A stretch of DNA of 64,000 nt from positions 6,324,001-6,388,000 of the forward strand of contig JAKZAN010000007.1 of NCBI GenBank assembly GCA_023053545.1. Direction: 5' to 3'. Source of the stretch: Lepidurus packardi. Lineage: Eukaryota; Arthropoda; Branchiopoda; Notostraca; Triopsidae. The notes below the pieces were generated by a model. It saw only the letters and a list, made by a program, of their open reading frames with translations, had not been told where the DNA came from and did not search any database. The number at the start of each line of letters is the position of its first letter. Within the stretch, counting starts at the first letter, position 1. Below, one piece after another: positions 5,464 through 61,681 of the stretch. The position numbers were made by a program, and so were the translations under genes.

Positions 5464-7553
5464 ATGAAACTGCAGGTAAAAATCTAAGAAAACGTCTAAA
5501 ACTGTTCGTGTTTACTAACTTCAAAATATTATAGATTCTCAAAGGATACTTCCTGGCGTACTTGAGTGTGTCAGTTCTGACCACACCGTTGAAAGAAGGA
5601 GATGCTTTAGTTAAGGACAATCAAGGACAGCTCACATCACTAAACGAAGAGGACCAATTAAGCAGTCCGGCTGAAGCTGATTCCCACGACTATTACTCTC
5701 AACAGGACGAGGTCGAACCAGATTTACCCGAAGAAGATCTAAGAATACGCCGTGACACTACTGGATCGCAATCTTCAGAAAGCTTCGAAGGCGACGATCC
5801 CAATGACAACCTCCAAACACGTCGTGAAGCTGCCAGCGGTGAGGAAGACGACAAGCGAAACAGTGAAGAAGAAGCTAAAAGTCCTGAAGAACGAAGCGGT
5901 AATCGCGAAGAAGCCCTAAGCTCTAAAGAATCTGACCGAAGCAGTAGTGAAGAAGTCAAACGCTCTAAAAACACGAAAGAACAACCCTATGACGAGGAAG
6001 ACGACAAGCGAAACAGTGAAGAAGAGGAAGAAACTAAAAGTCTTGAAGGTCGAAGCGGTAATCGTGAAGAAGTTCAAAGCTCAAGAGAATCTGACCGAAG
6101 CAGTAGTGAAGAAGCCGAACGCTCTAAAAACACGAAATACCCCAAACGTCCAAGTCGAAAGCGCCGTGACACAGACGACAGTAAAGATTTAAGCCGTTCA
6201 AGTAGTTCTGATTCAAGCAGTTTCGATTCAAGCAATTCCGACGAATCAGGCAAGGAATTATCAGAAGAAAGCAAGGAAACTACGGAACCTGAGCCCACCA
6301 CTACGGAACCTGGACCCACTACTACCGAACCTGAACCCACCACTACCGAACCTGGACTCACTACTACAGAAACCGAACCCACTACGACGGAATCTACGAA
6401 AAGCGCTCCCGAAGGTGAGGACCGCGCCAGGTCAGATGACGAAGACGAAGATTTGAAAGAAAGGCTATCCGAAATCGACGACGAGCGACGGGAAGCCGAG
6501 GATCGAGCTCAGGAAGACGCCCAGAAAAAAAAGGACGACATCGACAAAAGATGTAAAGAAGACGCAGAGGACGTAGAGCGAGATGCTCGAAAACGACGCA
6601 AGCAAATCGAAGATGAGTACGAAAAGCGGAAAGAGTTGGCACGGCGCGAGTCACGAATCAAGCGAACGGAAGACCAGCAGAGGAAGAGAGACCGAGAGAT
6701 TGACGAGCGTCTCAGGGATGCCGAAGAAAAATCTCGAAAGGCAGATGAAGCTAAGCACGATGCTGAAGAAAAGGCCCGCAACGCCGACAAAGCTAAACGC
6801 GACGCCGAAGACAATGCTAAGAAGGCCGAGGAGGCTCGACGCGACGCCGAAGACAAGGCTAAGAAGGCCGACGAAGATCGACGTGACGCCCAAAAGAAAC
6901 GAGACGAAGCCGACAAGTATTTGCGACAAGCCAAGAAAGAAAAAGAACGCCAAGAAGAAGAACGAAAGAAAGCGGAGGAGGAGAGACAGAAAGCAGAAAA
7001 GGAAAGGGAACGTAAGGACGACGAACCGAAGAAATCTGATAAAGAACGAGAAAAGGAGGAAGGGCGTACAAAAGAAGACAAGGAAAAGTCGGACACAGAC
7101 AAAGATGAAGAAACAGTCGAAAAGGGTGACAAAAAGAAGAAGAAGCGTGTCCTGGTGGTCAAAATCTACGATTATGACGACCAGAAGAAGTCGCACATGG
7201 AAATCGAAGAAAGGGATCCCTCGGTCGTCGCCATCGAAACCAACGTGGACGACGACGATGAAGACGAAGATGCCCGGAAAAAGCGTTCCGTCAATGCTCA
7301 TTTCACCAATTCTAGCATAGAAGCGGCACTGTCGAGGCTAAAACGCTCTCCTGATCCTCAGATGATTCGAATCCGTAGCAGACACTCACAAGTGCCAATG
7401 CCCTTCCGCGGAGGTATGCCCACTCTTGCACGTCCACCCATATTCCAAGGAAGACCAGGTTACGGAGGAAGTAGATATCCCGGCATGCCGAGCCACGGAC
7501 ACGCGACTATCAGAATTCGTGGAAATCCATTTATTCCACAACGCCACTTTTAG
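5464..7553 (+). CDS. Secreted highly charged coiled-coil protein with mucin-like TTEP repeats
   Basis: Exons 5464-5475 (MKLQ) and 5535-7553, phase 0, about 676 aa. Splicing rebuilds a signal peptide (ILKGYFLAYLSVSVLTTP) that the large exon alone lacks. The mature chain is dominated by Glu, Lys, Asp, Arg and Ser. An acidic N-terminal third has two related blocks (near residues 115-155 and 160-205, sharing SEEEA/SLEGRSGNREE). Next come five TTTEPEP/TTTEPGP units (about 245-275). A helical region follows (about 330-480) with a repeating RDAEDKAKKADE pattern typical of a long coiled coil. The C-terminus is Gly/Pro/Arg-rich. Candidate furin or dibasic sites are RIRRDT, SRKRRDT, RKKRSV and RLKRSP, the last two separating the tail. 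Function unknown; an extracellular-matrix or cuticle/shell-type structural protein is a guess. AATAAA follows at about 7660. Confidence 0.8.
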
Positions 7554-26960: not shown

Positions 26961-29947
26961 TCAAAAAAATTTTCTTCGTCGAAGTCGGTGGTGCATTGGC
27001 CAGTATTCTAGTCTATCTGGGGGATGTCGTACTCGTCTTCTAGACTCCCTCCTTTTCAAAGAGCGCATCAAAATACGCTTCTCTAACCACAAAGGCGAAG
27101 TCTTTTCGACAACTGTCGATTTTGAATGATCCTCCTGAATGATGGGAAGGTCGTTGGCTAAGATCACTGGCTCGAGCTTATCCAGTTTCAACTCTTCTTT
27201 AAATCCTCGGTCTACAGGGGACAGGATAGGCTCTAAGTGGTCAGGTTCTAAGCTTTCTTGGCTATCATCAGGAACTCCTTCAAAGAGGGGAGCTTCAGCT
27301 ACCAGCACAGGTGGAGGATTGTTCTCGTTGGAGTCGCTGGTATCATCCTGTTGGTCTTCCACTTCTGCTTCCGTTTCCTCTTCTTCTTCGATTAACTTTG
27401 GTTTCTCAGCCAAGTAAATGTGCTCGACATTGAAGGGACTTAAGGTCGATAAATCCGACAGGTCGTTAGACCCATAGAGCATTTTACGTTTGCGTTGCTT
27501 ATCCTTGGGCCATCCAGTCAAATTCCTTCGTCGACGCCTGAACCTTCCGCGCGACTGGGATCTGGACTGTGTGCTGGTACTTGCCATGTCGGATTCTTCA
27601 GTATTGCATGTCAACACGGATTCCGGACGTGCAAGTTCCATTTCCGAATCAACAGCTACTCTGTGAGAGAATAATTCTTGACAAAACTTGGATTCTTCCT
27701 CGGGTAACCATGGACTGTGCAATAACTGCATGATATCCACTTCGTCTGTGACCATGGGGTTGATATCGTCTTCAATGGTTGAGTTAATCACATCTCGGAA
27801 TGTCTCTAAAGTCTCTACCAAGTCTTGCGCCTGATCTTTGGTCTCTTCTTCAGGAACCGGAGGGGTCAGAGGACGTTTACGGGGCCTTCCGCGCTTCCTA
27901 GGCACCTGCAGCGCGGAGGCGTTGTTCGCAGTGGCGGTCTTGCTTTGTGGACTCGAAGCGTTTAGAAACTCTTCCAATTTCCGGGCAATGATGCGCAAAT
28001 CGGCTTCACTTTCCACCTGACTGACTGAGGGCAAGGGTTCCGTGTTCGAGTCCTCACAGAAACTGTCGCGGCGGGAGATGCCCGTAGCGGACATGATGGC
28101 CAAGGTGGACGCGTGGCAGCGAGGCGACATTCGCGGGACGTCGCTCAATAGATGGGCTTTTCGCGTGGGTTTACGGACCCTCCGGGGTCTATTTCGCATG
28201 TACTCATTGGAATGGTAGGACTTTGTTGATGTCGATGCACCAGCATTACTCGACGAGCTTGGTATCGAGGCTTGGGACTGCAACCGCGTGCTTATTGTTC
28301 CGCGCGATGTGATGGGTAAGTTTCTGGGCCCGCCTCTTCGGCCTCTGCCCCGCCCACGCCCGTTTCTGCGTAAGATGACTTCAATAGATTGTTCATAAGG
28401 TAGGAGGAATGGTGTAGGTCTGATTTCGTGTCCTTGAATGGGTAGCAACTGGTTAGTGTCATGGCGACGATACGTAATATACCAAGGTTCTTGACAAGGC
28501 ACCTGCTCGAACGAAAAGAGCAGCGAGTCCGTTGTTTTGGCAAATGTTTCGACCTCTGCATCAGCTGCCAAATCGGCTATGGCACTTTCAGTATCACTTG
28601 GAACGCCATCGCTGTCTTTAAATTTTGAGCAATAAACATCTTCAGGTGAGGGGCTTGGGACGCGAGTACTTAGTTTGTCTCTTCGACGAGTGGACAAGGA
28701 ATCGTCCGGTTTTCTGACTGAAGAAGAAGAGGAGTAAGAGGCTTTGATGCTCCGACTTCGACTATTATAACGGAAAAAGGGAGATCGAGCTCGCCATGAA
28801 GACGTGCTAGGATAACTGATGTAGCGTTCGCTTTCTTGGATTAATGCTTCCACCGCAGTCCGTCGCTTTCCTTTAGGACATGAACAAGGAGCTTCCGTCG
28901 ACAGCGTACTGGACTCGGTTTCAAAACTCTCCAAGGCTAGCGTTTGGTTTAAAAGGGGGCTGCCGTTGTCAAGTACAGGCTCGTTGAGTAGTTTGAGTAG
29001 AAGAGCGTTAGCTTTTGACGGAGAAGAAGGGGCGCTGGAAGGCGAAAGAGGCGTTGGCGAACAGGGCGAATGAGGACGGGGCAGAGGACAAGGCGTAAAC
29101 ATGCGAGGAGCGACATAAACTGCAACTGGCTGGGGAGCACTCGTTTCGTCTTCTCGGGATGAAGACATGCTTTCAATACTAATATCCAGACTTGTTTCAC
29201 CGTCACCGTTGCTTGCGGTAGACTCTGGGTCTTCCTGTTCATGTTTGCCTGGGTAACTTTCTAGCAAAATACAGAGTTCATTACGTCTCCGCTTCTTGGG
29301 CGGAGTTTGCTCGCAGGAATGGTTGGTGTTTTCAGCCTTAATTGCAGGGCCACTGGACCGTAATTGGCAAGAGAGAAGGTTCGCTTGGCGAAAGTCACAG
29401 TTGCTATCTGAATTCGTGGCTTTCTTGCTAACTTTCAGCCTTCTTTCGGGCTCTTCGGAATCCACATCTTCAGCCGGTTCTTCCTTTACGACAACTTTTC
29501 CTTTTTCTTGCATAATACGAGACGAGCGTCGGACAGGGCAACTGCTTAATGACTGGGACCCTTGCCGGTTTCGCAAAGAAGGACCGGCATACGAAGAAAG
29601 GGAGGACATCGATGATCTTGAGGACTCGTCCTTATCAGGTAAACCCGTCTCCTACAAAATGGCAAGTTATGAGTAACGACATAAAAAGAAGAGGGCTGTT
29701 TTTTTGAGTCTCCTGTTACCAGTTCAACCATGCTGCGTGTGACAATTCCCAGCTTGGAGACGCGGGCAGACAACCTAGCAGCAAGACCTTCTGGCTCTTT
29801 GCCATTAGCTTCAGCAGTGACCGGCTTACAAGCTGCACTTTTCAGAGATGCTTTTCTGATTCGGTTACTATAATAATTCAGCGCTTAGCCGTCAATCAAA
29901 AAATCATGTGGCAAATTGTATGCAGCATCTACTTACAGCTTAGCCAT
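26961..29947 (-). CDS. Unrecognised 949-aa Ser-rich, Arg-rich nuclear-type protein
   Basis: Exons on the minus strand: 29947-29937 (MAKL), 29867-29720, 29651-26961, in frame with consensus splice sites, total 949 aa. The frame opens MAKLNRIRKASLKS and continues through ARLSARVSKLGIVTRS. Visible features are basic clusters (PPKKRRR; GRGRGRRGG near the middle; KRGRPRKRP, an AT-hook-like motif; RRRRNLTGWPKDKQRKRK), long Ser/Pro/Glu low-complexity runs, and one segment that looks conserved (VPCQEPWYITYRRHD followed by HEIRPTPFLLPYE). There are no zinc fingers, SET, PHD or bromodomain. It is probably a DNA-binding or chromatin-associated scaffold; I could not match it to a named family. Confidence 0.78.
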
Positions 29948-30761
29948 AGCTTGGCCCTGAAACGCTAGTCCGAAGAATGTTCCTATGAATGGAACCAAAC
30001 ATTAGCTGACTTGGGCTAAGTACATGCACCTAAAATACATTTAAGATTATAAGAAAATTAATACACGAATATGCTGTAAAAAAATTAACTGAGAAAACAC
30101 AAAACGGTATCATTAATATTAGAAATATAATTAAAGTTAAAGACCTATAGCAACAGGAAGGAAGAAAATAGGCTTGTTTACAACGCCTTTTAAAGTTGAT
30201 ATATAGCATGTTTAAAGGTATCCGAGATACCCGCATGAAGTTTTGCTAGTAAGGCAAGTGGGTAAGCTAAATATATTGCTTACCGTATTATATTTTGGGT
30301 AGCAAAGCATTAACTTTGCAAAGAAAAGCAGAAAAACAAGGGCGACGGCCGTTACGCCAATCACCGGCAGCGGAATTCCATGGTAAACATCCGGCCCTAA
30401 GGGTCTTATTTGCTTTTCTCAAGGACAATTCACAACCACAAGTTATAATGAAGATTTTACACAGATATCATAAACGCAAACTTGCCAAAAAACTACTAAA
30501 CCCTCACTTAAGGTTCATTCAAAACAAAGAGTCTTTAGTGTGACCTAACACAACCATCGTTCGTCAATAGCGTCAGACGCGATTTATTGTAACTGTCACT
30601 CGTAGGTGGCGTTCACTACAAAGACACAAAAGGCGCGATTTCAAAATTTGAACTCCTAGAATATATCACAACCTTACCGGAAACACTAGAATTTCCCTTT
30701 AATTATGAAAGAATTTGTTTAATCTCCTCGTACAGGAAAACATAAATTAACAATAACAAAA
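29948..30761. other. Intergenic sequence between two minus-strand genes
   Basis: It contains the promoter and leader of the 949-aa gene and the 3' UTR of the TAF1A gene. The 82-codon frame at 30295-30543 starts with TTG and has no support. Confidence 0.5.
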
Positions 30762-33700
30762 TCACTTCTTTTGCAACTTAGCTAAGCATCTTTTTAAAAT
30801 AAGATCGGTAGCTTTGTTAAGGTTACGCTCTTCTACCGAATCAGCCATAGAAGCAAAGTTGTCAACTTCCATCTTAGTATAATCAATTGCTTTAGCACGT
30901 TTAGCCTTTATGGTTGAAATTTCCTCGAATTTCACAGTGGGCAATTCAGGTTCTGAAATTGAAGAATCGGGACTTTCTTCCATTGATTCCACAAGGGATT
31001 TCAAGGGTTTTACGAAACCGCTATGGAAACCGACTTCTTTCGCATCTGCTTCACTGGCTTTACTCACAGGTGTTACTACCGTGTTGGACAGCGTAGATTT
31101 GGAAGAAAGACGTTTTGAGGCGCCATTTTTAGTTTTGACTTTAGCTTTATCCACTTTCTTTGTTTCTTTCGCCGTTTTCGCAATGTCAGGATTCGATAAA
31201 AAGTTGTCAATAAAATTGGATACGAAATTATCATCAACTTCACCTTCCGAAGGGGGGTGTAAAGAAGTATCCGTACTTAGCCTTAAATCTATATAAATTA
31301 AAGTATACAGATACGATTTTTTTGTACTCTGAATAGCAAATGCGACTCACTTTCAGTTTGAAATTCGCTTCTCTGCAGTTTGGATTCCCCACTACGGTAT
31401 TTCTTGAGGTCCATTTTAGGTATACGAATCTCTTCAATATTCTTTTTGCTACCATGCTCGATATCCTCTTTTGCTACGCCTTTGCTAAGGTTCGAAGTAT
31501 AAAGTTTTGCTCGCCTGCTTATTGATTTGGCAGACGGTCGCTTAGTTGCGTCCCTTCCAGCAGCCTTTTCTTGATGTACACTTCTCTGTGGCTGCTTTGG
31601 CTGATCAGGTTTGGACAAGAAATCTTTAATAAAATTCGACACGAAACTATCATCCATATCTTCATCATCAACCAAAGTTGGGCCAGTGCTAGTCTTCGCA
31701 GGCGATTCTAAGTAACCGCACAAATTAGTCCCAATGTTTTGTAACTGGAATTTAATAAAAAAAATACCTTTGACTTCAATTTGTTTTTCCTGCAATTTTG
31801 TTTGCTGTCCTTCGACAGTTCTAGTGTGCTCAACTTTGCTTTTAAGAACGTCGCTTACTTCCAAAGTCGCCAAGACATCACCATTAGAGCCCAAACTCTT
31901 CTTTCCCTTTTCCTGAGGTGTTTTCCCCTTCTTTGAACGGACAGTGGAAATGTGTTCAGACGAACTGGACTCTGAGCCCAAGTACTTTGAACTGTTTCTT
32001 ACGGATTCCATAATAGCTCTTTGGATGTCTTCGATGCTCAACGACATAACACCAACATTACTAAACTCCTCGTTTTCTTCTAATCGTGCTTTAGACAGAT
32101 CTGCTGCAGAGGATTGGAATTCGTTCTGAGCTGGAATTCGTTCAGACGAATCGGAACCAGAAGCAGTACTGGGTTGCTTAAGCTTCTTTGATTGTTTTGC
32201 CAGTTTAGCTGGCTCCGGATTTGCCAAGAACTTTTCGACAAATCTCGCTACAAAACTACTATCGTCTTCATCACTCGAGGACAGGCACACGATATGTTCC
32301 GCATTTGTTCCTAAAACGGCGTACAAGCAATTCGTAAGAATACATTCGTTTAAGGAAAGTAGTGACAGAGAAATTACCTTCTACTTCATTCTGGCTCTTT
32401 CGCGGTTTTGCTTGTTGCAACGTGTCGTCCTTTTCGTCTTCGTTAAAATCAAATACCTCGCAAGAATTTGCTTGGCTAGTTACTTTGTTGACAAGGTTTT
32501 CCGTTCCCTTTCCTTCGAACTGCTTATATGATTTAAATTTAGTATTTAGCGTGGGCATCTTATTGTGGGAAGGGGAGTGGTTCATGTTCTCTTCTTTGGA
32601 TGTCACAATAATCATTTGAGGACTACTGATCTCTGACAGTGAACCAGAGCTGCTACGGCCTTCTGCCTCGTCAGCTTCCGAATTTCCCTTCCTCACACGC
32701 GAATTTGGAATCTCTGCTACTGACTCGGATGATGACTGCTTCTTAGTGCCCTTTCGCGATGAAGTGATCGATGCCTCTCGTTTGGCGGTTTTCTTAGGCT
32801 GTTTGGGGAGTCTAGGATTCAATAAGAACTCTTCGACAAACTTAGAAACGTAGCTGTCGTCAGATTCGTCCTGTTGCGAAGAATGGAAGATAGTGTCCTC
32901 GCGAGGTTCTAAGTCAGGCGAACAACTATGAGATGTTGTACTAGGAATCTACGCTAAATTTACCTCCTGATTGTTCCTGCTGTGCTTTATTTTGGCTTCC
33001 TTGGGTACCTACATGATTGCTTTTCTCGCCTACTTGCGAAGGTTCCGAAGTCAATTCCTCACATACTAAACGAAACAAACGTTAAGTTGTTAACGAAAGG
33101 AAAAGTATAGATTAGGTCGCTTTACCTTCTTTCATTGTGTCTTTCTGAACGGCATGTTGGGATATTTGCAAGCTTGCTTCAGTTTCTAGTGATCTGGGCG
33201 ACGCTTCGGAATTTTTGACAGTCGACAGTGATTCACGCCTACTCTTTCTCGCCGTATTCTTTTCCCTGGTCATTTCAGTAGAATTATTTGATTCACACGC
33301 GTTATCATGACTTTCTTTCAAAACAGGTGAAGCAGTTTGTGGGAATATTACAGGATCTGTATCAAAAGACTCGGTGTTCTCGACATTAATTTGTTCTGCA
33401 TGTCCGTTAGGTTTCGGTACGTCTTTTGCGGCATCAGAATTGGCTTCCATAATGAGTTTACTAAGCTTCTTCTTTGTAGGCTTGGATATCTCCACTTCCG
33501 TAGATTTCTGAGATAAGCTGGACTGCTTAGCTTCGTCGTTCATTATTACAGTAATTACATCGTCTTGAGTTTTTGCCTTTTCTTTTGCGTCAGAATCTGC
33601 TTCCATAACGAGTCTATTACTCTTCTTCTTTTTAGTGGTACATGTTTCAACATGCGTAGATTCCTGGACAAAGCCAGATTGCTTAGCCACATATGCGATT

Positions 33701-36700
33701 TCTGCACATTTATCGTCTTGAATTTTTGACACGTCTTTTGCGTCACCAGACTTTGCTTCTTTAACGAGCTCATCAGAATTTGCTTCCATAACGAGTGCAT
33801 CAGAATTTGGTTCCCTAATGAGTTTTTTACACTTCTTCTTCTTCTTTGGCTTGGATGTTTCCTCTTCCGCAGATTTCTGAGAAAAGCTCGATTGCTTAGC
33901 TTCATCCTTTGAAATTTCGGTAATTGTTTCGTCTTGAGTTTTCGACACGTCCTCTGAGTTTGCTTCCGTAACGACCTTACTACGTTTCTTCTTTTCAGAC
34001 TTTGACGTTTCTGCTTGCATAGATTTCTGGGAAAAGCTGGTTTGCTTAGTCTGGTCTTTTGCGATCTCTGTACTCTTATCGTCTTGAATTTTTGACACGC
34101 CTTTTGCATCACCAGAGTTTGCTTCTGTAACGAGATCATCAGAATTTGCTTCTATAACCAACTTCTTTTTCTTCTTTCTGGGTTTCCGTGTTTCCACTTG
34201 TCCAGATTTCTGAGAAATGTTCGATATGTTTGCCTCACCGTTGATAGCACCTGCCTTTATACCGGCTTGCATTCCTTCTAATGTACCAGCACCAATTCCA
34301 TTCTTTCTTCTCTTCCTTTTCCTGTTCTTTTTCTTCGACACCGATTCGGACAAAAGGTCGGAGTTCGACTTTGTGGGTAAACTCTCATTTAAAGCTTCAA
34401 CAGCCATAACGAGCTCATCAGAATTAGTTTTCATAACGAGCTTACGTTGTTCCTTCTTTTCAGATTTACATTTTGATGCTTCCATTTGCGTTGAATTCTG
34501 GGAAAAGTCGGATTGCTTGGCTTGGGCCTTTGCAATTTTTGTAATTGTATCGTTTTGACTTTTCGACACGTCTTTTGCGTCAACAGAGTTTGCTTCTGTA
34601 ACGAGCTCATCAGAAGTTGCTTCCATAACCAGCTTATTGCGCTTCTTCTTTTTCTTCTTTTTGGGCTTAGGAGTTTCCACTTGCGCAGATTTCTGAGATA
34701 TGCTGGATTTGTTTGCTTCGTCGTTGATAATGTCTGCCTTTATACCGTCTTGAATGCTTTCTACTAAAAAGGAACTCATTCCATTCTTTCCTTTCTTCTT
34801 CATTTTCTTTGACATTGATTCGGAAAAAATGTCAGAGTTTGACTTTGTTGGTAAACCTTCATTCAACGCCTCAACATGCTGTACTACAACGTCGGATTCC
34901 TGAGCCGTACTCTCCGACTCACCAGTTACTGTCTTATTCTTTCGTGTTCGAGTCAAACTACTTTCTATGCTTTCCATAGGAACTCCCTCACTAGCTGAAT
35001 TTTGCGTACCAGCTTCTCGTATGGAAGAAACAGAAGAGCTTTCAGATTCCACACGCTTCCTCTTCTTTCGTTTCTTCTTTGTCTTTGACATTAATTCGCC
35101 CTCTATGCCATCAGGCCGTACAAACGCTTCTTCGAATCGATGGGGAATTTCATTCAAAGCCTCAACATGCTGTACTACAACTTCGTGTTCCTGAGCAGTA
35201 CTTTCCGCAGTTACTGTTCCGTTCTTCTTCTTTCGCGTTCGAGTCAAACTATCTACGCTTTCTGTAGAAACTTTTTCACTATGCGAATTTGGAGTACCAG
35301 CTTCTCGTATGCAAGAAACAGATGAGCTTTCAGACCCCCCACGTTTCCTCTTCTTTCGTTTCTTCTTTGATATTAAATCGCCCTCTATACAATCAGGCCG
35401 TACGAACGTTTCTTCGGATTGATGGGGAATTTCATTCGAAGCCTCAACATGCTGTACTACAACTTCGTATTCCTGAGCAGTACTTTCAGCAGTTACTGTT
35501 CCGTTCTTCTTCTTTCGCGTTCGAGTCAAAATATCTATGCGTTCTGTAGAAACTTTTTCACTATGCGAATTTTGAGTATGAGCTTCTCGTATGCAAGAAA
35601 CCGATGAGCTTTCAGACCCCCCACGTTTCCTCTTCTTCCGTTTCTTCTTTGATATTAAATAGCCCTCTATACAATCAGGCCGTACGAACGCTTCTTCGGA
35701 TTGATGGGGAATTTCATTCGAAGCTTCAACATGCTGTACTACAACTTCGTGTTCCTGAGCAGTACTTTCCGCAGTTACTGTTCCGTTCTTCTTCTTTCGC
35801 GTTCGAGTCAAACTATCTACGCTTTCTGTAGAAACTTTTTCACTATGCGAATTTTGAGTACCAGCTTCTCGTATGCAAGAAACAGATGAGCTTTCAGAAC
35901 CCCCACGTTTCCTCTTCTTCCGTTTCTTCTTTGATATTAAATCGCCCTCTATACAATCAGGCCGTACGAACGATTCTTCGGATTGACGGAGAACGTTCGC
36001 AATGGTTCGGGAATACTGTTCGCTGTCATCGACTGTCGTACAATTCACATCGCTGGACTTGGTGACTTCATCCAAAATGGAGTCCGAGATGCAAGGATGT
36101 TTTGAACCTAACCATTTCTTCTTCTTCTTTTTAGTTGTTGTTTGGTTTTCTCTTTGCGTGAACACTTCCTCTGAATAAGATTGCTCATTACGCATAACAG
36201 CGGGGATTTTCATGCATTGGCTCTTGTTTTTCTCTGCTTCGATATTTTCCTTCTCCGAAACCGTTTCATCCACATCCGAGCCTTTATATCGAACAAGTCC
36301 ACCTGCAACATTATTTCTTTGATCTTCGACTTCGCAACTTTCAATTTCGGAAGACACAGGTTTCTCTTTCTTGACATGAAGGCCCTTCTTCCGTTTTCTC
36401 TGAGGGACAGATTCTTGACTGCTTTTCGATTCTGTTTTGAAAAGATGCCGAGTACTCTGTTCTTGTGCTTTCCCAGCGACAGTACTTTGTTCAATCTCAG
36501 GTTTCTTAGGCGTGTGAATGCTTATTAGGTTGGATTCCCCCATAGTTAGTTCCTCCGCTTTGGAATGATCCTCGTCTAGTTCCTGTACCCCCAAGTTAAG
36601 GCTAATTTCATCGCAAGGTTCACCTTTGATAGTCGTGTTCAAAACTTCGGGCTCCGCTTCGATGAAACTTAGAATATCCAAATTGGTTACCCAGTCTTTA

Positions 36701-39700
36701 CCGTCCCTTTTGCTTGCTTCAACCTCATCATCGGAAAACTGACACTCAACCAGAGGACCCGAAGCATTTCCATTGCATTCCAGAATACTTTGAACCACTT
36801 CGTCGACTACTTTCCGCTCTTCTTGGGATAAACCAGGCCGCGGAATCTTGCTTCCTAGGGGAAATTCTTTCAACTCAGCGTTTTGTTCCTCCGTTTCAGG
36901 AACAAAAGTTACGACCTGTTCCTGTTCATGGATAACCTGAGAGGCGAACAAGTCCGGGCTTGTTTGGAAAGACTGCTGTGAACTCACCCGCAAGACTCTC
37001 CCTGAATTTAACGTTGCCTTTGCATCTAATCCCTCTTCATTATCACTGTTAAACGCATACGTGTCGCTATCTCTAGCCGAAGCCTCGTCTCGAGTGTTGT
37101 GTTCCGAATTTTCAGGAGACGAACTGCGAGATGGCCCCGTCTGACATGTTATTTCGAGATCTGAAACATCAGAAATACTGTCGCTAGGGGTAGCGCTCTT
37201 GACACGCTTCGGTGATGGACACAGCTCGGTCAAATCTTGGCGTGGTCGCTTCTGAGCGGGAGTCCGTGGAAGACTAGGATAGCTGCTCCGGTCCGAGAGA
37301 ATGCTCAAAGACATTTTGTCTTCCTCGCTACTGGAGTTACTCGACGAAAAAGAAGGCAACTCCGTTTCACCGCCACTTAAGCTCGTTCTTCCGTTTGGTG
37401 GTTTGCTTTGCCGCTGACTACGAGTAGACCTACTTGCCAGTGGAAGGTCTATCTTCACTTTAGGGGAACGGATGTCGTCGTCACTGTCTGAGCTGGCACT
37501 CTTGACGATCCTGGAGAACCTAGAGACCGACAGTTTCGTAAGCTGTTCCCTATTCTTGCGCTTTCGAGACTTGACGGGGATATCAGGTAATCGCAAGTTT
37601 TCAGCGTCTGTTGTAGAGTCACTCGGCGCGTTGGAGTCAAAGAGTGTGACATCACCATCGAAATCCACTTTAGATATGTCATTTTTTCCTGCCGTCAAGC
37701 GAGCATCTTGACGCTCCTTTTTTAGAAGCAAACGCTTCTGTAAGCGTGCAAATACGTCCGTATCTTTGAGACTAGCTCGTAACCGACGATCAGTAAGGGA
37801 TAAAGAATTAATCGGAATGCTATTTACAGGCCTGCCTATAGTCATTTCCGATTCACTCAAAGCTTCCCATTCGGTTTCTTCCACGACAGTTCCTTCCTCA
37901 GATTCCGAGTCAGGAAAGACGAGTGCAGGAGCTGCTGTAGCAGACTGCTCCTTGTTGTAAGCTTCCAGCTTAGTATCCAACTGATTTTTCTTCTCCTGAA
38001 TTTGTTCGATAAAGGCTTTCAAGGTCTTACCCGTACTACTTTGCAAAGCAGTCTGCACGTACGGATGACCTATACAAAATCCGTAGTAAAAAATAACCTA
38101 TAGGTTGTTGATCATACCTTCAGATTCCAAGACGTGGCAACAAGACGCTTTAAGTAAAAGAAGATTAGTTGTCTCAGACTCCGCGCGGGAAAAATGAACG
38201 CTGTTCCACCATGATTTGCGATCCTCATAAACATTGCGAACTTCTTTAACGCAATCCAGGGTACCGCTAAAAAGAAAAATGAAAAAAAAGTTAAAAAAAC
38301 ATCCAAGAAAAAGTAACCATAGTTCTTACATTGTGTACACTTTCTTGAGCGCTTGCCAGAATAAAGACCAGCCAGAAATAGAAGAGTAATTGTGTGGAAA
38401 ATCCAACGAATTGGCAACATAATTCAGCGCTTTGAGCGCATTCTTAGTAATCAAGGCACTAGACATTGCTGAATCGTCATCCTCATTTCCGCTATCATCG
38501 TTACAATCTTTAGGAAAAACCGATAAACCATTGTTACTCTGATTGGTAAGATGTTGTTAAATTACCGCCGTTGAGTAGAATCCTCGCCAGATTAAATGCA
38601 CAAGGATCTCCAGGGGAACTTGTAACCATTCTTTCCAGGACTTCGGCTTTTTGCCCCACGAAGTCATTCACAATGCACTGGATTGAAAGATCAGTAGCTC
38701 TTGATTTCGACAGTGTCAATGCATAATTCTTAGCAATTTGCTGGCCTTGCTTAGCGCTTAACAATTCCAAGTATATGGATAGGAACATATGAGGTGCTTC
38801 TAAGGGGTTGTCATAAAGAGATGAGAGGGTCTGCAAAGCTTTATCAGCACAAGCGGTTGAAACTGAATCTAACATATGTCCACCTAATGAATAAAAAAAA
38901 TGAGAACGGTTATATGAGCGAAAAATTCCATACTTTCATTTTCTCCTGTTTCTGCGCTCTGCAAACACTCCACCCAGCGAACATACTCCAAAGCTCCTTT
39001 GTAACCTTCCAAATACTTAGTAACTTGATCCATATCAGGAGTCACAGCTTTACGTCTTCCCTTCTTTGGAGGTGGCATTTTCTAAGACAATAAACATACA
39101 TGAATACAAAAATATTCAGAAAAAATAGAAGATAAAGACGTCTTACTAATGCTAGGTCCCTAGCTTCTTCATATTGTCCAGCGCTCATTAAAATCAGAAA
39201 ACCAACTAGGCGTACTTCTGGCTGGTAAAGTGCTGACGTTGTATAAGACACACTTTGGGCAAATATAAAGAAGACGAAAAAAAAAAAAAAAAAAAAATGC
39301 ACGCCTCGAAATCGCAACTAATGTCACAACGTACTTGATAAAATCTTTCAGGTCTTGGACCGTAGCCTCTCTATGATTCCAGATTATATGCAAACCAATT
39401 TTCCATGTTAGGTGCTCGAGACTTTTGCCATGATCCAAGACGTATATCAACATAGATGCAGCCTCTTTCCAATTTTCTTTCATTACTTCAGTCCGTAACG
39501 CTTCAACCGCAGACGGCATTTGATCAAAAGTAGCATAATGCCTCTCTTCTGTTTATAATATAACAAAGTCACGATATTAGGGGAGTTTAGAACCCAAGTT
39601 TATTTAAATCAGTTTCTTACCGTCACGTGTAATAAATGGTTTCAATATTCTCTTCTTTGTTTTCGTCTTTGATAACCTATTCGTATGTTTCGTATCATCT

Positions 39701-39845
39701 TTTAATCCTTCCAGAATCTCAGCCTGATTTGTTGAGTATACGGAACACAAAATAAACAAAGAGAAGGACGTATGTACTAAATCAAATTGTACAAACTGCC
39801 AAACATACTTACAAGCTTACTAAAAAAAGACTTCGTTGCGTTCAT
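30762..39845 (-). CDS. TAF1A: TAF1A (SL1 subunit of RNA polymerase I) with a giant repetitive C-terminal extension
   Basis: Fourteen minus-strand exons: 39845-39813, 39723-39621, 39548-39335, 39252-39147, 39081-38934, 38883-38566, 38507-38330, 38266-38118, 38069-33126, 33065-32964, 32908-32378, 32310-31768, 31707-31351, 31288-30762. They sum to 2751 codons without a break, so 2750 aa. Residues about 75-440 match human TAF1A (450 aa) in order: the WKEAASMLIYVL helix repeat, SAGQYEEARDLA, YKGALEYVRWVECL, and DRKSWWNSVHFS (human RKNWWPGFHFS). TAF1A helps place Pol I at rDNA promoters. From residue about 440 the chain becomes Lys/Ser/Glu-rich with tandem repeats and many KKKRKKRKR clusters, then four exon-encoded FVxxFxxxFLxxP modules. 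Exon 6 to 7 needs a 58-nt intron. Intron 3 carries a T-tract of over 20 bases. The extension is unusual for the family. Confidence 0.88.
33400..34830. repeat. Second coding repeat family in TAF1A exon 9, unit about 60 codons
   Basis: About seven degenerate units, each combining a KQSxFSQKSxQxETSKPKKKKK block with LVMEANSDxLVTEANS and DAKDVSKIQDDxxTEIAK blocks. They are more diverged than the 282-bp units and of varying length. Boundaries are approximate. Confidence 0.75.
34861..35988. repeat. 282-bp coding tandem repeat in TAF1A exon 9 (four copies)
   Basis: Units of 94 codons at about 35988-35707, 35706-35425, 35424-35143 and a diverged 35142-34861 (residues about 1110-1485). Each runs FVRPDCIEGDLISKKKRKK, GGSESSSVSCIREA, NSHSEKVSTE, LTRTRKKKNGTVTAES, VVVQHVEASNEIP. 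The first three copies are nearly identical, so expansion was recent. Confidence 0.9.
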
Positions 39846-40393: not shown

Positions 40394-43300
40394 TTAGAAC
40401 GCATAACGAGTTCTAATATCTTCCAATTTCTTTGAAACTTCGTTCGGCGTACGGTCTAAATCTTCAGCGATACTTCGTTGCTTGGCGGGATCCAAGGAAT
40501 TATATTGTTCACAGAGGTCACCGTCACTTACGTTCTAAAATAAAGAGAAATAGTTAATAAACCTGAACAAGTAAAACCTTAAACTGGTCATTACCCGCAC
40601 AGGGAAGTAAAACGATCGATAGGAAAGGTGATCTCGTCCACATAAAGGGGGATTTTCAGCCCTCATGTGCATTTCCAAATGTTGGAAGAAATCGTTATCC
40701 TCTTTGGAGGTGAAAGGTACCAGTACGCCAACAGTGCCTGATAAGGTTGTGTACACCAACGATTCACTGCCACCAGGAATGAGGGTAGCTTTTTGCAACG
40801 TCATAATTGTCTCGCCAATATGAGTTACACAAAGAACATCGGCTTTTTGAGAAGCACCATTCAATACCCCACGATCCCAGAATGACTTGGCACCTGTAGG
40901 ATCTTCATCCACATCGTCGCTGGTGTTGGGAGGTAAACGAACCTGTAAAGAAAGAAAGATACAATCAAGTCCACGTAAACGAAATCGTATTTCTTCAAGA
41001 ACGTAATATCTTACCACAGATATGTTGCCAAATTTGTCGGCTACAGCAATGGTGTCGTAGTCTAGCAAAGCTGTTGATGTGACCCAACGCGGATTGGTTT
41101 CATCAGCGAAGATAATAAGCTGATTCTCCCTTCTCTTGTACCGAACATAATGAACGCTTTCTTGGACATCACTGACGTAAATGCGTTGACCCAGCGCTTG
41201 AATTCCCACGATCAGATTAGGAATATGCTAAGATAAAATGTTGAAGTTTGTCCTCGCTTTTTGGTAATCTTCACAACTAACCTTGTTTTCACATTTCCTA
41301 AGCAGCTTTTTCTTGCCAAAATCGTACATTCGAAGTAACTTCCCTACCCCGATCAGAGCCCTGCCTTGGAACGCACAGATGGCCATTGGTACTTCATCTA
41401 CCGACGTTTTATGCAGAAACTCTAACCCCGTGCTTTCGTTCACCAACCTATTTAAATAAAACTCAATTAAGCTCGCTTCTATACTTTCGTCCCGTAACTA
41501 GAATTAACAGGTAAAATCAGTACTGCAGAACTATTTCCTCACGAAAGCTAGGTGAAATCTGTTCATCATTTTGATCCTATGCACAAAAAATATTTTTTAA
41601 AAAATCTTACTTGTAAGTATAGACGAATCCTCCGGAGACTTGGCGAGGATTCAGCTTCAAATCTTTGGCAACGCCCACCAGTACATACTGACTGTACTCG
41701 GAAACGGCCGCAAATCGCACCATGGCAATACTATAGTACAAAAAATAACTCGACGTTAATAAAACTTATTCAATGCATTTCCAGCATAATAATCCAACTC
41801 TTTAGAACACAAAAAGTTATCTGTAAGAATGTGTCTATAACGATGTACTGGTCAGGCCGCAAAAGAGCACTGACCAGCATAGCGAGCTAAGACTATATTT
41901 ACTTTTCACAGATTGGGAACGCCAAAACAGGTAATGAACATGGACCTATTTTGGAGCTAGACTGTGTTGGACCAATAAGAATGGACAACTCTGCTAACAA
42001 TTACCTGACAGCGGCTTCATTCTGGGGTAGTCGAATCACTTGGTGAGTATGTCCAGTATGCGGATCGATAACACGAATAAGGGATGCCCACATTCCTACT
42101 CCAGCTTTGGGAGCTCCAAAAACGCTTTCCGGCATGTCTTCTTGTAGAAAGGCATCTGCCATCTGATTTGCCAACTCTTCCTCTCCCACACCGGCAGCTT
42201 CACGCATTTCTTGGGCCATTTGAACTTTGCGCTGCTGCTTGGTTTCTTGCGTGTACGCGTTATGATCAGTCTCAATGATAATCATGCGGCCTGTTTCATG
42301 GGCGACGAACTTTCTCGGAGTATATTCCAGAGGGAATGCCACCTGATTGAAAATAGTACCGAGCTTCTCTAGCGCAATAATCCTCAGCGTATTAGAAGCA
42401 ATCGCCACAACTCCCTCAGGACATTGTTCGGAAGAAAAGCTGGACGCGTACTCCAAGCTGTCGTACGACAAGGGAGTCAAATGGAAACGGTTCTGGTAGT
42501 GATAGTTCAACCAAGACCGACTGGACATGGCCAACACCTAGTAGTTTTAAAAGAAGACACTTTAGTTCCAGTTCAAGCAAATCCTTATTTAAAAACAGGT
42601 TCATTTTCCTGAAGAAGTGTGTCATAAACTGTGTACTGGTCAGACTACTAATAAGTACTGACTAGCATAGCGAGTCAAGACAGGTTTACTTTCCACAGAT
42701 TGGGAACGCCAAAACAGGTAATGAACATGGACCTATCTTGGAGCTAGACTGTGGCTGAAGCATTCGAGTAGAGAAATCCACTTACTGCTTGACTGCCTTG
42801 GACGCGAATCCTGAAAAGCTTGACGCCTCTGGATCCCAAGTATCGAGTTCTGGTGTCCGACAGATCTCCCGTAACGGAATCTAACATGGTTCGTAGCAAG
42901 ACACCGTTTTGCAAGCCCACGTAAAGGTACAGGGATCCTCTGCTACTTTTCCCGTCAGCACCATGCTCTACAGCCCCCATTTCCACCAAGCAGAGGGACT
43001 CGGGCGGAGCCGGCAAAGCTTGCATACTCAACGGCGCCAGACAATCCTACAAAAGACATCACATGAGCAACTTTCCTAAGGATCAACAGACACACTAAAC
43101 GAAGAATTGGCACGTTTCTTTCAGATAACAATATAATCAAGTCTAAATATCTCAGTACTTAGAATCATTTCTCTAGCCTGTTAGTTAACATCATTAAAAC
43201 CATAAGCTGTTTTTGATTTTTTTCCCAAAATAAACTTACATTAGGATCTAACGATATCACACGAACGGTGTTATCTGATAAGCCCACAGCCAAAAATCGA

Positions 43301-46300
43301 GATCGCTGTTCTCCTTGCGGGACGGTGGCTAAGGCCATGCAAATGACATCCGAAGTCATCTCCTTGCGCTCTGTGTACTCGTTCAGCTGTCCAGTCTAGA
43401 AAAGAAAGGCAATTCATAGATTTTAGTTACATTCGCGAAAGCAAAAATTTTGTGGGAGTTGTGTTAAGGTATCAGGATTAAATTTCTCTTTCATTATACC
43501 TCAGTCGGGAAAAGAAGACCAAATATTTAATGAATATCATCACGTTCAAGAATGTTTATAATTAAGTTAGGATAGACTTACTGGGTCCATTTCGAAGTAC
43601 ACAACTTCGCCTCCTGTCAAAGCAATGACCACTTGGCGGGCGTTGACGGCGCAACGAGCAATAGTGCGCTTGCCTGGAGCTTTCCATTCATTAACTCGAC
43701 GGTCTGATCTGATGTGTCGAATGCCGTCAGGATAGATCTATAAACAGATACAAAATTATATCACCTTGAAATAAAGTAACTTCAATCTGCAGTTGAAAAT
43801 GGAATCTCAATCAGTTAAATGCTCTTTTCATGAAGTTTTCATAAGTCTAACATGTGCAAGCATCATATGAATCCAAATTTTGACTGAAGTTGGAAAATTG
43901 TTTTACCTGGACTAATGCATCATCCCCTAGGGCAGCACAGGATAAGGTAGGCGTGGTTCCCAAGAAACCAGAATCCGTGACTTCCTCAACCGTTTCTCCG
44001 ATAGAAAGTACCAATGTGGCGTTTACGAAAGAGACGACAATATAAGAGTCAAACTCCTCTGTAACACAAAGCAACAAGCACATCTAATTAGTTCAAAAGA
44101 TTCCAAATTACACTGGAAGTAAATCAACGTAGTTAAGTAAATAAAAGCGTCTGAAAAGGAACGCAAACATGGAGCTGGGCCTTTCTTTTCGTGCTAGCGA
44201 TCCTTGGCGAAGCAATATACCGTACCTCCAACGCAAATATTATCCGGCAGTGACTGAAGGCCAAAGGTGTGTCAAGCCTGCAAGGAAAATAAAGACTGGA
44301 GTTGGAAAGTGGACCCGAACTACCAGTCTTGTTTAATAAATTTACGGAGATACTACCGAACATTCCCTAACGCTCTTTGAACACGTTCACCCTGCAATTC
44401 TACCAGGTTCCTAAAACATTAAGATAAGAAGGGAAAAAATTACCATCCACACGACGCTTGACGGTCCACACAGCATTGGGATTGCCGGGCAACTCTGATA
44501 CGGCCATTTCAGAAACTTCCAAACCATGACGCAGAACTCTCAAAGACGATCGTGGGCCCCGCCCACATAACGCGTATAGTTGTGGCGTATCTTCATTAGC
44601 TACAAGATTCGAGAAACAAATTAATAAACTACTTCCAACCTGATTTTTTTTTTGCTAAGAATACTAAAGCATCAGTGGTAAATTTATCATACATTATCAA
44701 TTCAGACGGGAAAAGAAGACCAAAAGTTTACATATTTTCATCCATTGCTAAGATTTAGGATTGAAAAGGAACGCTAGTCTTACCCAAATCAGCAAAATGG
44801 CTTGCAACAATAGGAGACAGAGATTCCATTTCGTCGACCAAAACCAAGTTTCGCAAACCACGAGGAGCGAAGAAAAAAGTATCGCCTTCTTCTAAGGGCA
44901 TGGCTGAGCTAAATTCGGGCTCATCGTCATCATCTCCCAAGTGGGCGATCTGGTACAAGAAACTAAGAAAAATAAAAATGATTACTCACTTGCTCTTAAA
45001 GAAAAGAAGATAGTTCAGAAAGTGGTAGCTAACCATCAGAATCCAAATCGTAATCATAAATCAGGTGAAACACGGATAAATGACATCACTTACAACCGCC
45101 AAGTTAAGTGAAAGCTAAGACTGTTACTTACTGGTTTCCGAACTCCGCTGCAACAAAAAGGAATCCAGATTTCAATACACACATGGAAGCCGCTACTGGT
45201 ACGGTATCAAAGTATTTTAATTTGATTTCGGTGACCATTTCCTCGTCCGTCTCCAAAGTGATCTTGAAAAGATCGCCTTGTTCTGTTTGGACCAAGAAGA
45301 AGAACATGGATTTTGTTCTGTGGGAGGCCGAGCAGACCAGAATCATGCCACGCTCGGGATCATCCAAGTCGTTCTGCAAGAGAAAAAAGCACAATATAAT
45401 GGAATGCCATGTAACAACGAGAATAAACTAAAAAAAATACACAAATGTATCAGGGTAAAAACCAGGCCTGCAGAGCAAAGTGCGTGTGCATTCCAACGAT
45501 GAGTTCCTGATTTAATTTTGGCATGCTACGACTACATCATCCATAAAACAATGAGTAGAGATACGCAAGCCGAAAATATCGGGATTTTTCGTTCAATTAA
45601 ACCTCGTATAGTGCTTACCCTTCTACGTGGAATAGGGCAACGAATATCGTGTTGGTCGCCCAGGTTTTTGTAGGTAATGTAGTTTTCGGAACAGACCAGT
45701 ACTCCGGAGGGACCGTCAGTGCCTCCGGGTACTGGTATAAGAAAATTGGCATGTTCTTCTAGTGGTTCGCTGTATTTCCGTACGACGTGATTCAAGCCCA
45801 GGTCGAGTTCATAGAAAGTCAATGTTTGTTGAGTCTTCTGAGCCGCTTCCCCAGTAGAATCGCCGTCAACTTCCTAAATTAAACAAATAAAGAACTTTAG
45901 CAACTGGGAAATTTAATTTTGTATATTGTGTGCAATAATAATAATAAAAGGATTTTTTTTTTACCTCGTAGTCAATCTCCAGGCAAGCGAACATGGGATT
46001 TTCAAAGCCTACGTCAACGCCAACAATGTGATAAACCAGCGTGTGGGATTTATGGGCTTCTAGAGGAGATGAAATGGTAAGATGTGCTGCAGCGTCCCGA
46101 TTTAAAATATATACCAATTTCTGTTTTTCCACAGCGCCTGGAAGAACAATAAATTAACGGAAATTAGCACATAATACGTAAGAAGGAATTTGAAAGTGCT
46201 TACTTATCATTACAGCTCTTCCTTTGGGATCCATAGCTAAATACTGACCAGGCACAATCCGTCTGCAGCCCGTTTTGCCAAAGGTTTCTTGGTGTACTTT

Positions 46301-46600
46301 GTCAAAGGCATTTTTAGATGTGTTGTACTCAAGAATGACTATGCGACCAGAGTCGGATCCAACAACTAAGTAATCTTTGCTGCCTCCAGTCAAACGAAAC
46401 GCCATAAGAGATCGAATGATGCCAAAAACCTCGACGCTGTGCAGGGTATGGACTTTGCCTGTATTCGGATCTGGCCGTAGCACTTCCAGAATTCGGCCTT
46501 TTGAAACAATAACTTCTTGCTGTTTCGTACCACTGAAGTTACCGTGGACGGCATGGGTAATGCCGGTAGGCTTTTGCAACGTTAAATTGTACAGATACAT
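40394..46600 (-). CDS. SF3B3: Splicing factor 3B subunit 3 (SF3b130/SAP130)
   Basis: Sixteen coding exons on the minus strand: 46600-46204, 46137-45965, 45873-45619, 45373-45132, 44962-44784, 44599-44444, 44058-43907, 43737-43582, 43395-43240, 43046-42786, 42537-42005, 41730-41611, 41447-41282, 41227-41015, 40942-40595, 40534-40394. They join to 1215 aa (human 1217) with no frame break. The protein is near-identical to animal SF3B3 over its whole length, from MYLYNLTLQ through [19 protein letters not shown], the [19 protein letters not shown] block and [12 protein letters not shown] to the C-terminal [11 protein letters not shown]. It is a triple beta-propeller core subunit of the SF3b complex of U2 snRNP, needed for branch-point recognition. 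A 5' UTR intron (donor near 47012, acceptor near 46637) is likely. Several introns contain snoRNAs, listed separately. Confidence 0.97.
41827..41966 (-). ncRNA. Intronic H/ACA snoRNA, copy 1 (28S pseudouridylation guide)
   Basis: Lies in the SF3B3 intron 42004-41731, same strand. Hairpin 1 has a basal CACAG/CTGTG stem and an 11-bp upper stem CCAAAATAGGT/ACCTGTTTTGG. The hinge contains an H box AAAGTA (ANANNA). Hairpin 2 has the upper stem CTGGTCAG/CTGACCAG and a basal GTCT/AGAC stem, then ACA exactly three bases from the proposed 3' end. The distance from each upper stem to the H or ACA box is 15-16 nt, the family rule. The hairpin-1 pocket arms (CGTTCCC and AGCT) pair with GGGAACG-UG-AGCU of 28S rRNA. 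That targets the U equivalent to yeast 25S Psi2944, which from memory is guided by snR37. The target of hairpin 2 was not identified. Confidence 0.88.
42615..42754 (-). ncRNA. Intronic H/ACA snoRNA, copy 2 (paralogue of copy 1)
   Basis: Lies in the preceding SF3B3 intron 42785-42538, same strand and length (140 nt). The upper stem CCAAGATAGGT/ACCTGTTTTGG keeps pairing through an added G-U pair. The basal stem is CCACAG/CTGTGG, the H box is AAAGTA, and ACA lies three bases from the end after a 15-nt spacing. The hairpin-1 guide arms are identical to copy 1, so it has the same predicted 28S target. In hairpin 2 the left arm CTCGCTATG is kept, while the right arm and apical loop differ and one A-C mismatch appears in the stem. 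Confidence 0.87.
43496..43550 (-). ncRNA. Intronic C/D box snoRNA, SNORD111-like, copy A
   Basis: Lies in the SF3B3 intron 43581-43396. The minus strand reads C box GTGATGA (43543-43537) and D box CTGA (43504-43501). The 16 bases before D include GGTCTTCTTTTCCCG, complementary to the conserved 28S segment CGGG(A/G)AAAGAAGACC. The D+5 rule places the methyl on a G in that segment. From general knowledge, human SNORD111 is hosted by SF3B3 and guides 28S Gm3923 in the same segment. C-to-D spacing is only 43 nt and the terminal stem is weak, so the exact ends are approximate. Confidence 0.75.
44696..44752 (-). ncRNA. Intronic C/D box snoRNA, SNORD111-like, copy B
   Basis: Lies in the SF3B3 intron 44783-44600. 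D box CTGA is at 44705-44702, preceded by the same guide as copy A, here with a better match next to D (ACGGG complement). The C box position, 43 nt away exactly as in copy A, reads TGGATGA, a deviation from RTGATGA. A short CAA/TTG closing pairing is possible. Both copies carry the same 28S guide, so one may be a diverging duplicate. Confidence 0.68.
45030..45096 (-). ncRNA. Candidate C/D box snoRNA with U18-like guide
   Basis: Lies in the SF3B3 intron 45131-44963. The minus strand shows C-like GTGATGT (45089-45083), D' CTGA (45064-45061), C'-like ATGATTA and D CTGA (45039-45036). The 11 bases TCCGTGTTTCA near D' are complementary to 28S TGAAACACGGA, the segment served by U18 in other eukaryotes. 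The register differs by three bases from U18, and the terminal stem is poor, so this is tentative. Confidence 0.4.
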
Positions 46601-48116
<1,516 letters not shown>

Positions 48117-59914: not shown

Positions 59915-61681
59915 ATGAGTAAATCAAGGGCGCAGTTTTTTAAAAATTGTCTACGCGATCTTGAACGTAGAGCAAATTTGCCTGCGTCGGCCTACGATAG
60001 TTCTTCAAGAGCGCCCATACTGATTAGTAACGAACATTTTGAGAAGTTTAGGCAGGCGTGTTTTTCAAAGAAAACAGAGTTCGATGCTTACCCTCTCCCG
60101 AAGCGTACGGCAATATGGCAATCTCAGAGTTTTAATATTGACCAAATTGACACAACTGCTTCCAGTACTTTGCCCGAGCGTTTGAGCGAATGTTCAGCTT
60201 TGTGCAGCACTGGAGATGGGAATTGTTTCTACAATTCCGCTTCTTTGTCTTTGTTCGGCAACCAAAGGTATGCCGTTGAGTTGCGCTGCCGAGTTGTGGT
60301 CGAATTAGCAACCAATTATGAGTTGTACTCCAGGGAGTCGGCAGGATACCTCTCGATGAAACAAATTGAAACCCTAGTCGAGTACTCAGGATTCACTTTC
60401 GACCTTGTTAAATTCACGGGCGTTGACTCAGTGTGCCCTACAGGTATTCCACCGGCGGAAGACTGTTTTAAGTACTATTCCATGGAACATGCCAGGGATC
60501 GGGAATATTCGAGCATTATTGCATTCCCAGCTTTGGCTAATGTTTGTAAGATAGCCGTGGAGTCAGTTTATCCGAAAGCGGATGGAATCAGAGCATCTCA
60601 TCAAGCGAATTTTTTAAACGAGACGTTTTCACCAAGCGGTGCCGTTTCCTCTAAAACTATTCGAATTTTGTGGACTGGCGGGCTTTTGGCAAACTTCACG
60701 AAGAAGGAAAATGGACGTTTAGTCCCTCCAACATCCTGGAATCCCAATCATTTTGTGCCTGTGATTGAGCGTGCTAGTCAGTCACCCCTCTTTTTGTCAG
60801 AGAACTGCACTCTTCCGGTTCTTGATGTGGTAGAAACTGCGTCAGTTATTCCCAGTCATCCAATTGAAACTGCAAATGTGATAACACCTGTTGCAGTTTC
60901 TTTTTGCAGCTCTATGCAAAATAGTAGTAGCGCTGTTAGTTCAGGGCTTCGCGAGTCGTTCTCGCATGAAAATTCAAGCTCAGATTTTGAATTGTCTGTC
61001 CCAAAAGCTTTTGCCGCAAATAATGGAGAGCACGAAGAAAATGTCACTAAAGCCATTTCATCGAATGGTAAAACACCTGGTGTGAAGTCAGGCAGAGTAG
61101 TATCTCATACCAAGCAAGGGCCTTCAAAATTTTCGTGCAAGGGATGTGAAACTACGTTCAAAACAAATCAAAATTTGGAGAATCACATTAAAAACAAGCG
61201 CTGCAAGTTTCAGCTAGGAAAACAAAGCTCTAGTCAGATTCTGCTTGCCGAGCAAGGATCTAAGGGCTTTATTTGCGAAGACTGTAAAACCGTTTTCACA
61301 AGGAAGAGCAATTTGAAGTTGCATATAGAAAGGAAAAGATGTAGGAAGTCTAGTTTTGAGTGCCCGCAGTGTAGTTTGCAGTTTTCTAGAACAGACATGC
61401 TCACCCGTAATGTAGAATTAGTTCATTCTCTTGAATTAGGCTCTAGTCAAATTTTGCTTGCCGAGCAAGGATCTAAGGACTTTACGTGCGAAAACTGTAA
61501 AACCGTTTTCACAAGGAAGAGCAATTTGAAGTTGCATATAGAAAAGAAAAGATGTAGCAAGTCTAGTTTTGAGTGCCCACAGTGTAGTTTGCAGTTTTCT
61601 AGAGCAGACATGCTCACCCGTCATGTAGAATTAGTTCATTCTCTTGAATTAGAAGAAACACTTCTGCGGAGATCCCCTTAA
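59915..61681 (+). CDS. OTU-domain protease with C2H2-type zinc fingers, probably element-derived
   Basis: A single intronless frame of 588 aa behind a TATA promoter. Residues about 90-290 form an OTU/vertnin-like cysteine-protease domain: catalytic GDGNCFYNSAS, ELRCRVVVELA, and a C-terminal WNPNHFVPV holding the catalytic His. After a Ser-rich linker come five zinc-finger-like units (FSCKGCETTFKTNQN, then two FxCExCKTVFTRKSNLKLHI / FECPQCSLQFSR pairs). The last two pairs are a 213-bp direct duplication. In the first pair the second finger has Asn where His is expected (LTRNVELVH against LTRHVELVH). The lack of introns beside intron-rich neighbours suggests a retro- or DNA-transposon origin. 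The deubiquitinase role is inferred from the motif only. Confidence 0.75.
   Translation: MSKSRAQFFKNCLRDLERRANLPASAYDSSSRAPILISNEHFEKFRQACFSKKTEFDAYPLPKRTAIWQSQSFNIDQIDTTASSTLPERLSECSALCSTGDGNCFYNSASLSLFGNQRYAVELRCRVVVELATNYELYSRESAGYLSMKQIETLVEYSGFTFDLVKFTGVDSVCPTGIPPAEDCFKYYSMEHARDREYSSIIAFPALANVCKIAVESVYPKADGIRASHQANFLNETFSPSGAVSSKTIRILWTGGLLANFTKKENGRLVPPTSWNPNHFVPVIERASQSPLFLSENCTLPVLDVVETASVIPSHPIETANVITPVAVSFCSSMQNSSSAVSSGLRESFSHENSSSDFELSVPKAFAANNGEHEENVTKAISSNGKTPGVKSGRVVSHTKQGPSKFSCKGCETTFKTNQNLENHIKNKRCKFQLGKQSSSQILLAEQGSKGFICEDCKTVFTRKSNLKLHIERKRCRKSSFECPQCSLQFSRTDMLTRNVELVHSLELGSSQILLAEQGSKDFTCENCKTVFTRKSNLKLHIEKKRCSKSSFECPQCSLQFSRADMLTRHVELVHSLELEETLLRRSP
61228..61653. repeat. 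213-bp direct duplication encoding a zinc-finger pair
   Basis: Copies at 61228-61440 and 61441-61653 differ at only a few positions; both begin CTCTAGTCA(G/A)ATT and end before CTTGAATTAG. Together they duplicate 71 codons. Confidence 0.9.

Follow-up and report, generated by a model that had tools for sequence, protein, structure and literature searches.

A TAF1A gene of Lepidurus packardi predicted to encode a long, largely disordered C-terminal extension with a lysine-block core

Known TAF1A proteins are about 450 residues in length. On the minus strand of a 64,000-nucleotide stretch of the Lepidurus packardi genome (contig JAKZAN010000007.1, positions 6,324,001 to 6,388,000; herein the window), a reading frame that begins with a TAF1A domain continues for ~2290 residues beyond it, around five times the length of the subunit. 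The locus raises two questions: whether the TAF1A domain and the sequence that follows it belong to one gene, and what kind of sequence the extension is. SL1 is the promoter factor of Pol I, with TAF1A as its helical subunit (for SL1 composition, see PMC9438803); the second question extends to what a long extension would mean for that complex.

The gene structure given here is predicted from the DNA sequence. A chain of 14 minus-strand exons runs in a single frame from an ATG at 39845 to a terminal stop codon ending at 30762, the sole stop in frame, and comprises 8253 nt encoding 2750 residues plus the stop. Exon 1 (39813..39845, with the start codon) and exon 2 (39621..39723) are followed by six exons within the TAF1A domain (exons 3 through 8: 39335..39548, 39147..39252, 38934..39081, 38566..38883, 38330..38507, and 38118..38266), by the very long exon 9 (33126..38069), and by exon 10 (32964..33065) and exons 11 through 14 (32378..32908, 31768..32310, 31351..31707, and 30762..31288, the last with the stop codon). 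All 13 introns are bounded by GT-AG and are 48 to 89 nt long; these include the junctions 38118/38069 and 33126/33065 singled out in a preliminary description of the locus, whose 14 in-frame exons and 2751 codons agree with our chain in exons, ends, and codon count. For exons 4 and 11 (introns 3 and 10), acceptors were picked among alternatives to keep the frame, other choices leading to stops, so that closure at these two junctions is not independent evidence. Exon 9 is open across 4944 nt in its own frame; the other two frames contain 75 and 144 stops. Introns 1 through 7 have phases 0, 1, 2, 0, 1, 1, and 2, and introns 8 through 13 are all of phase 1; exons 9 through 13 are therefore symmetric modules. 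Overall, the predicted structure of TAF1A plus extension is well supported.

The upstream neighbor on the same strand (~40395-46636) is a gene of the RSE1/DDB1/CPSF1 family (SF3B3-type), the frame of which ends near 40395, ~0.55 kb ahead of the TAF1A start. Elsewhere in the window, a 213-bp tandem duplication (61227-61652, plus strand; two copies, 94% matches) lies within a C2H2 zinc-finger ORF.

The TAF1A domain occupies the ~458 N-terminal residues. Residues 1 through 500 match PF14929 (TAF1_subA) in two stretches, with a score of 84.7 bits against a cut-off of 31.8 (E = 1e-23), which bears out the original identification; no other Pfam family was found in these residues at E ≤ 10, and a PDB sequence search with the same residues gave no relative at E ≤ 10. 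The family profile has one match across the 344 contigs (108.6 Mb) of the assembly, and all seven matches in an assembly search with residues 1 through 458 (three candidates scored) are the TAF1A locus itself; hence no second, canonical TAF1A is seen in the assembly. The same genome has a TAF1C_beta-prop match (32.8 bits, cut-off 27.1) in a 566-codon stop-to-stop frame on the contig that carries TAF1A, ~2.4 Mb away, and a TAF1B-type Zn_ribbon_RRN7 stretch on another contig (35.7 bits, cut-off 27.1; an E. coli control matched below the cut-off). The TAF1D profile had no match in the genome, in a search that matched in none of its controls. The assembly also contains many nuclear pieces of mitochondrial COX1, marked by in-frame TGA (contigs C1, C2, C4, C5, C6, C21, and C38); COX1 matches free of internal stops or TGA on C43, C52, and C214 are perhaps bacterial, these being possible contaminant or symbiont contigs.

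Several observations bear on whether the extension is part of this gene. With exon 9 spliced on, the C-terminal piece of TAF1A matches PF14929 up to position 364 of 365 (43.8 bits); with intron 8 retained, the match ends at 353 of 365 (40.3 bits), a gain on splicing of only 3.5 bits. As position 364 is reached only with exon 9 joined, the TAF1A domain appears to end within exon 9. We favor one gene over two because the last profile positions come from the exon that is home to most of the extension, because the coding strand has neither AATAAA nor ATTAAA from 39604 (intron 2) to 32991 (exon 10), and because TAF1A and the long frame lie too close together to accommodate a 3′ end plus a promoter. 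In the sense direction, exon 9 has no such hexamer where 3.3 to 3.5 are expected (none in 2.6% of 1000 synonymous shuffles; with plain codon shuffling, 5.8 expected and none in 0.05% of 2000 shuffles), and in the antisense direction it has three against 1.9 expected. Hexamers are present after the upstream neighbor (40221) and past the stop of the TAF1A gene, as ATTAAA at 30723 and 30703 and as AATAAA at 30583..30588 (minus strand), a candidate poly(A) signal at 30588. GC content at third codon positions (GC3) is 0.397 in the TAF1A part, 0.399 in the exon 9 extension, and 0.399 in exons 10 through 14; it is 0.437 in reference pieces of the SF3B3-type gene.

Two other arrangements have to be set against this evidence. 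If TAF1A ended near 38.0 kb and a separate gene for a disordered protein began inside exon 9, the shift in composition past residue ~458 and the in-frame stop within intron 8 would both be accounted for; this is very unlikely, however, as the TAF1A match runs on into exon 9, the poly(A) hexamers are missing from 39604 to 32991, there is no room for a 3′ end and promoter, and the splice sites of intron 8 are ordinary, its donor agreeing with 7 of 9 consensus positions (5 to 8 in the other introns). We also judge it unlikely that intron 8 acts as a switch, being sometimes retained to give a short TAF1A of canonical size, with the long form as a regulated variant. Read-through of intron 8 does meet a stop after five more codons, giving ~421 residues, near the canonical size, and this product still matches PF14929 as far as position 353; against this, the complete domain requires exon 9, and past intron 8 no poly(A) hexamer occurs before exon 10. 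A TAF1A with a giant in-frame extension, rather than a separate gene misread, is thus the arrangement that the sequence supports, as first proposed.

The extension lies C-terminal to the TAF1A domain, and the 2300 residues originally attributed to it are right to within ~10 residues when the domain end is taken near residue 458. Exon 9 encodes the final TAF1A profile positions, a Ser/acidic linker (residues ~459 through 1110), and the K-block core, which consists of four tandem copies of a 94-residue (282-bp) repeat (34858..35993, minus strand; residues ~1111 through 1500) and degenerate K-rich sequence up to residue 2064; exons 10 through 14 encode the remainder. All 16 of the protein's K/R runs of at least four residues fall in the extension, and the sequence KKKRKKRKR occurs four times, once per repeat, confirming the basic clusters and tandem repeats reported previously. 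On a charge-hydropathy plot, seven of eight segments lie on the disorder side and residues 2576 through 2750 on the other; the extension is predicted to be largely disordered. CK2-type sites number 100 compared with 77.8 in shuffles, and the observed value was reached in none of 500 shuffles.

The extension has no family match above cut-off in the sets searched. A Pfam scan of exon 9 and exons 11 through 14 (thus leaving out exon 10, 34 residues) gave nothing above cut-off: Phage_Gp84 in exon 9 (E = 0.0081), DUF6548 in exon 12 (E = 0.11), and TetR_C_8 across the exon 8/9 junction (E = 0.028) were all below it and were set aside. NCBIfam (prokaryote set), searched with the same exons, gave three matches only, all in exon 14 and all below cut-off. 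TAF1D is Lys-rich; a fusion with it was considered and rejected, exons 9 and 11 through 14 having no TAF1D match at E ≤ 10. Searches of a protein database that may hold no arthropods, among candidates of ~252 to 801, 612 to 1946, and 1512 to 4812 residues (8000, 7998, and 7554 candidates), found none at E ≤ 10. A literature search joining TAF1A with Daphnia found nothing, and in a search for protein fusion or extension TAF1A was absent among the papers listed.

To describe the charge pattern we used a blockiness z score, which is our own statistic relative to 300 shuffles and not the score of the authors of PMC10936679. For the whole extension, in which charged residues make up a fraction of 0.33 and the net charge is close to 0, z is 13.6 for K/R, 11.4 for K alone, and 12.7 for charge segregation; for D/E it is only 0.4. 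K/R blockiness is concentrated in the core, in E-containing sequence, with z = 15.4 for residues 1111 through 1500 and z = 9.2 for residues 1501 through 2064 (0 of 300 shuffles each); it is 4.4 for residues 471 through 1110 and 0.8 for the TAF1A domain. Residues 2065 through 2750 (exons 10 through 14) are not K-blocky (K/R z = 1.1; 40 of 300 shuffles). Lysine blocks beyond composition, within E-containing sequence, are thus a property of residues 1111 through 2064 but not of residues 2065 through 2750. Downstream of TAF1A, an 896-residue Ser/Arg/acid-rich ORF (26961-29651, minus strand) matches no Pfam family at E ≤ 0.01 and is strongly blocky in charge. Its K/R z is 8.9 (K only, 1.9), and that of the ORF at 5535-7553 is 3.1; since other ORFs of the window are also blocky, this property does not by itself establish a role in the nucleolus.

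The repeats and the last exons indicate how the extension may have grown. Repeat copy 4 differs from copies 1 through 3 with dN of 0.20 to 0.22 and dS of 0.41 to 0.50 (dN/dS 0.44 to 0.51); the three young copies are nearly identical and, with few changes, give dN/dS of 0.39, 0.58, and 1.19. These values fit a translated sequence under modest constraint. Exons 11 through 14 each contain one copy (copies 1 through 4, respectively) of the motif D(D/S)(S/N)(F/Y)VxxF(V/I)xxFLxxP, placed 19 to 21 residues from the exon start in all four, and seven residues within the motif and just past it are invariant; the shared position is a sign of exon duplication. All four matches found in a search of the assembly for paralogs of these exons at E ≤ 1 (five candidates scored) are the locus itself. 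The hydrophobic moment of the motif is not beyond that of shuffles (P = 0.06 to 0.21), and its amphipathicity is only suggestive.

A single gene could also have acquired this extension by duplication of exons and repeats, with a role limited to nuclear or nucleolar retention through the basic clusters. The near identity of the young copies and their dN/dS of up to 1.19 are in line with such an origin, as are the missing family matches (Pfam, NCBIfam), the protein database searches, which gave no relative, and the blockiness of the neighboring ORF. The constraint on the old repeat copy, the motif present with its invariant residues in four of four exons, and the preservation of the frame through ~6.9 kb of extension coding sequence argue against it, and we regard this account as possible but doubtful.

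Our preferred reading, in which the core of the extension would act as a condensate region that concentrates SL1 in the fibrillar center, we hold to be about an even call; the function of the extension is what we infer from the features above. Within the family, the N-terminal TAF1A domain builds SL1, and SL1 assembly would proceed through it here too. The K-block, E-containing core would then concentrate SL1 at rDNA in the fibrillar center through multivalent charge interactions, a step about as likely to be right as wrong. More weakly, the four motif copies in exons 11 through 14 may be short docking helices for a putative Pol I partner. The scaffold grammar that elsewhere belongs to Treacle or to Pol I subunits would, in L. 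packardi, reside partly on an initiation factor. A stronger version, to which we give only tentative credence, is that a fibrillar-center scaffold is covalently part of SL1: each promoter-bound TAF1A would come with a K-block condensate region of its own and with four docking motifs, recognition of the promoter and condensation of Pol I would be a single step, and the protein would fulfill in cis the task that in human cells falls to Treacle acting in trans. If the proposal is right, a TAF1A with a built-in K-block region would be an extreme case of turnover among carriers of nucleolar disordered regions, and it would allow a test of whether organizing a fibrillar center is within the capacity of an initiation factor of Pol I.

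Compared with TAF1A elsewhere (PF14929; its yeast counterpart belongs to Core Factor), the L. packardi protein shares the helical domain, which covers almost all of the profile, is encoded by a single copy in the assembly, and has TAF1C- and TAF1B-type partners in the genome; it differs in the ~2290 residues added past the domain. The suggested likeness to Treacle and Nopp140 holds only for general character and not for membership; what the extension does have in common is strong K/R blockiness. The extension shares with Treacle/TCOF1 its length, repetitiveness, predominant disorder, and lysine blocks, and the repeat exons of Treacle are in one phase, as are the exons of the extension. In the layout outlined in PMC11996177, Treacle has an N-terminal LisH and central S/E-rich tracts between linkers. 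Here, the Treacle model (PF03546) has no match in exons 9 and 11 through 14 at E ≤ 10, the N terminus is TAF1A in place of LisH (none in residues 1 through 500 at E ≤ 10), and S/E tracts are sparse, with six S/D/E runs of at least six residues in 2280 residues of extension against four in 121 residues of the animal's own Nopp140. As in Nopp140/NOLC1, the disordered sequence is rich in Ser, Lys, and acidic residues; the extension differs in these sparse tracts and in lacking SRP40_C (not found in exons 9 and 11 through 14 at E ≤ 10). The true Nopp140 of the genome is encoded elsewhere, by a gene at C3:142380 (SRP40_C, 75.1 bits). Within that locus (L002 1-1660), an RGG-rich frame ends at ~1433 and the SRP40_C frame lies just downstream, which suggests alternative C termini.

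For the core, which resembles it, the grammar of K blocks plus E-rich regions is a better comparison than Treacle or Nopp140. As outlined in PMC10936679, disordered regions of this type partition into the fibrillar center, and the grammar is strongest in POLR1F and POLR1G; nucleolar grammars persist across eukaryotes while the proteins that carry them differ between species. Zebrafish normally have no fibrillar center, and addition of TCOF1 produces a compartment like it (PMC10936679, review). The lysine-rich disordered tails of snoRNPs, in the account of PMC11528048, compact the nucleolus and help to sequester Pol I. Like the disordered regions of POLR1F and POLR1G and the snoRNP tails (PMC10936679, PMC11528048), the TAF1A extension has lysine blocks across E-containing disordered sequence that is joined to a folded subunit of the nucleolus. 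What sets it apart is its carrier, a subunit of an initiation factor, and its length, about five times that of the carrier domain.
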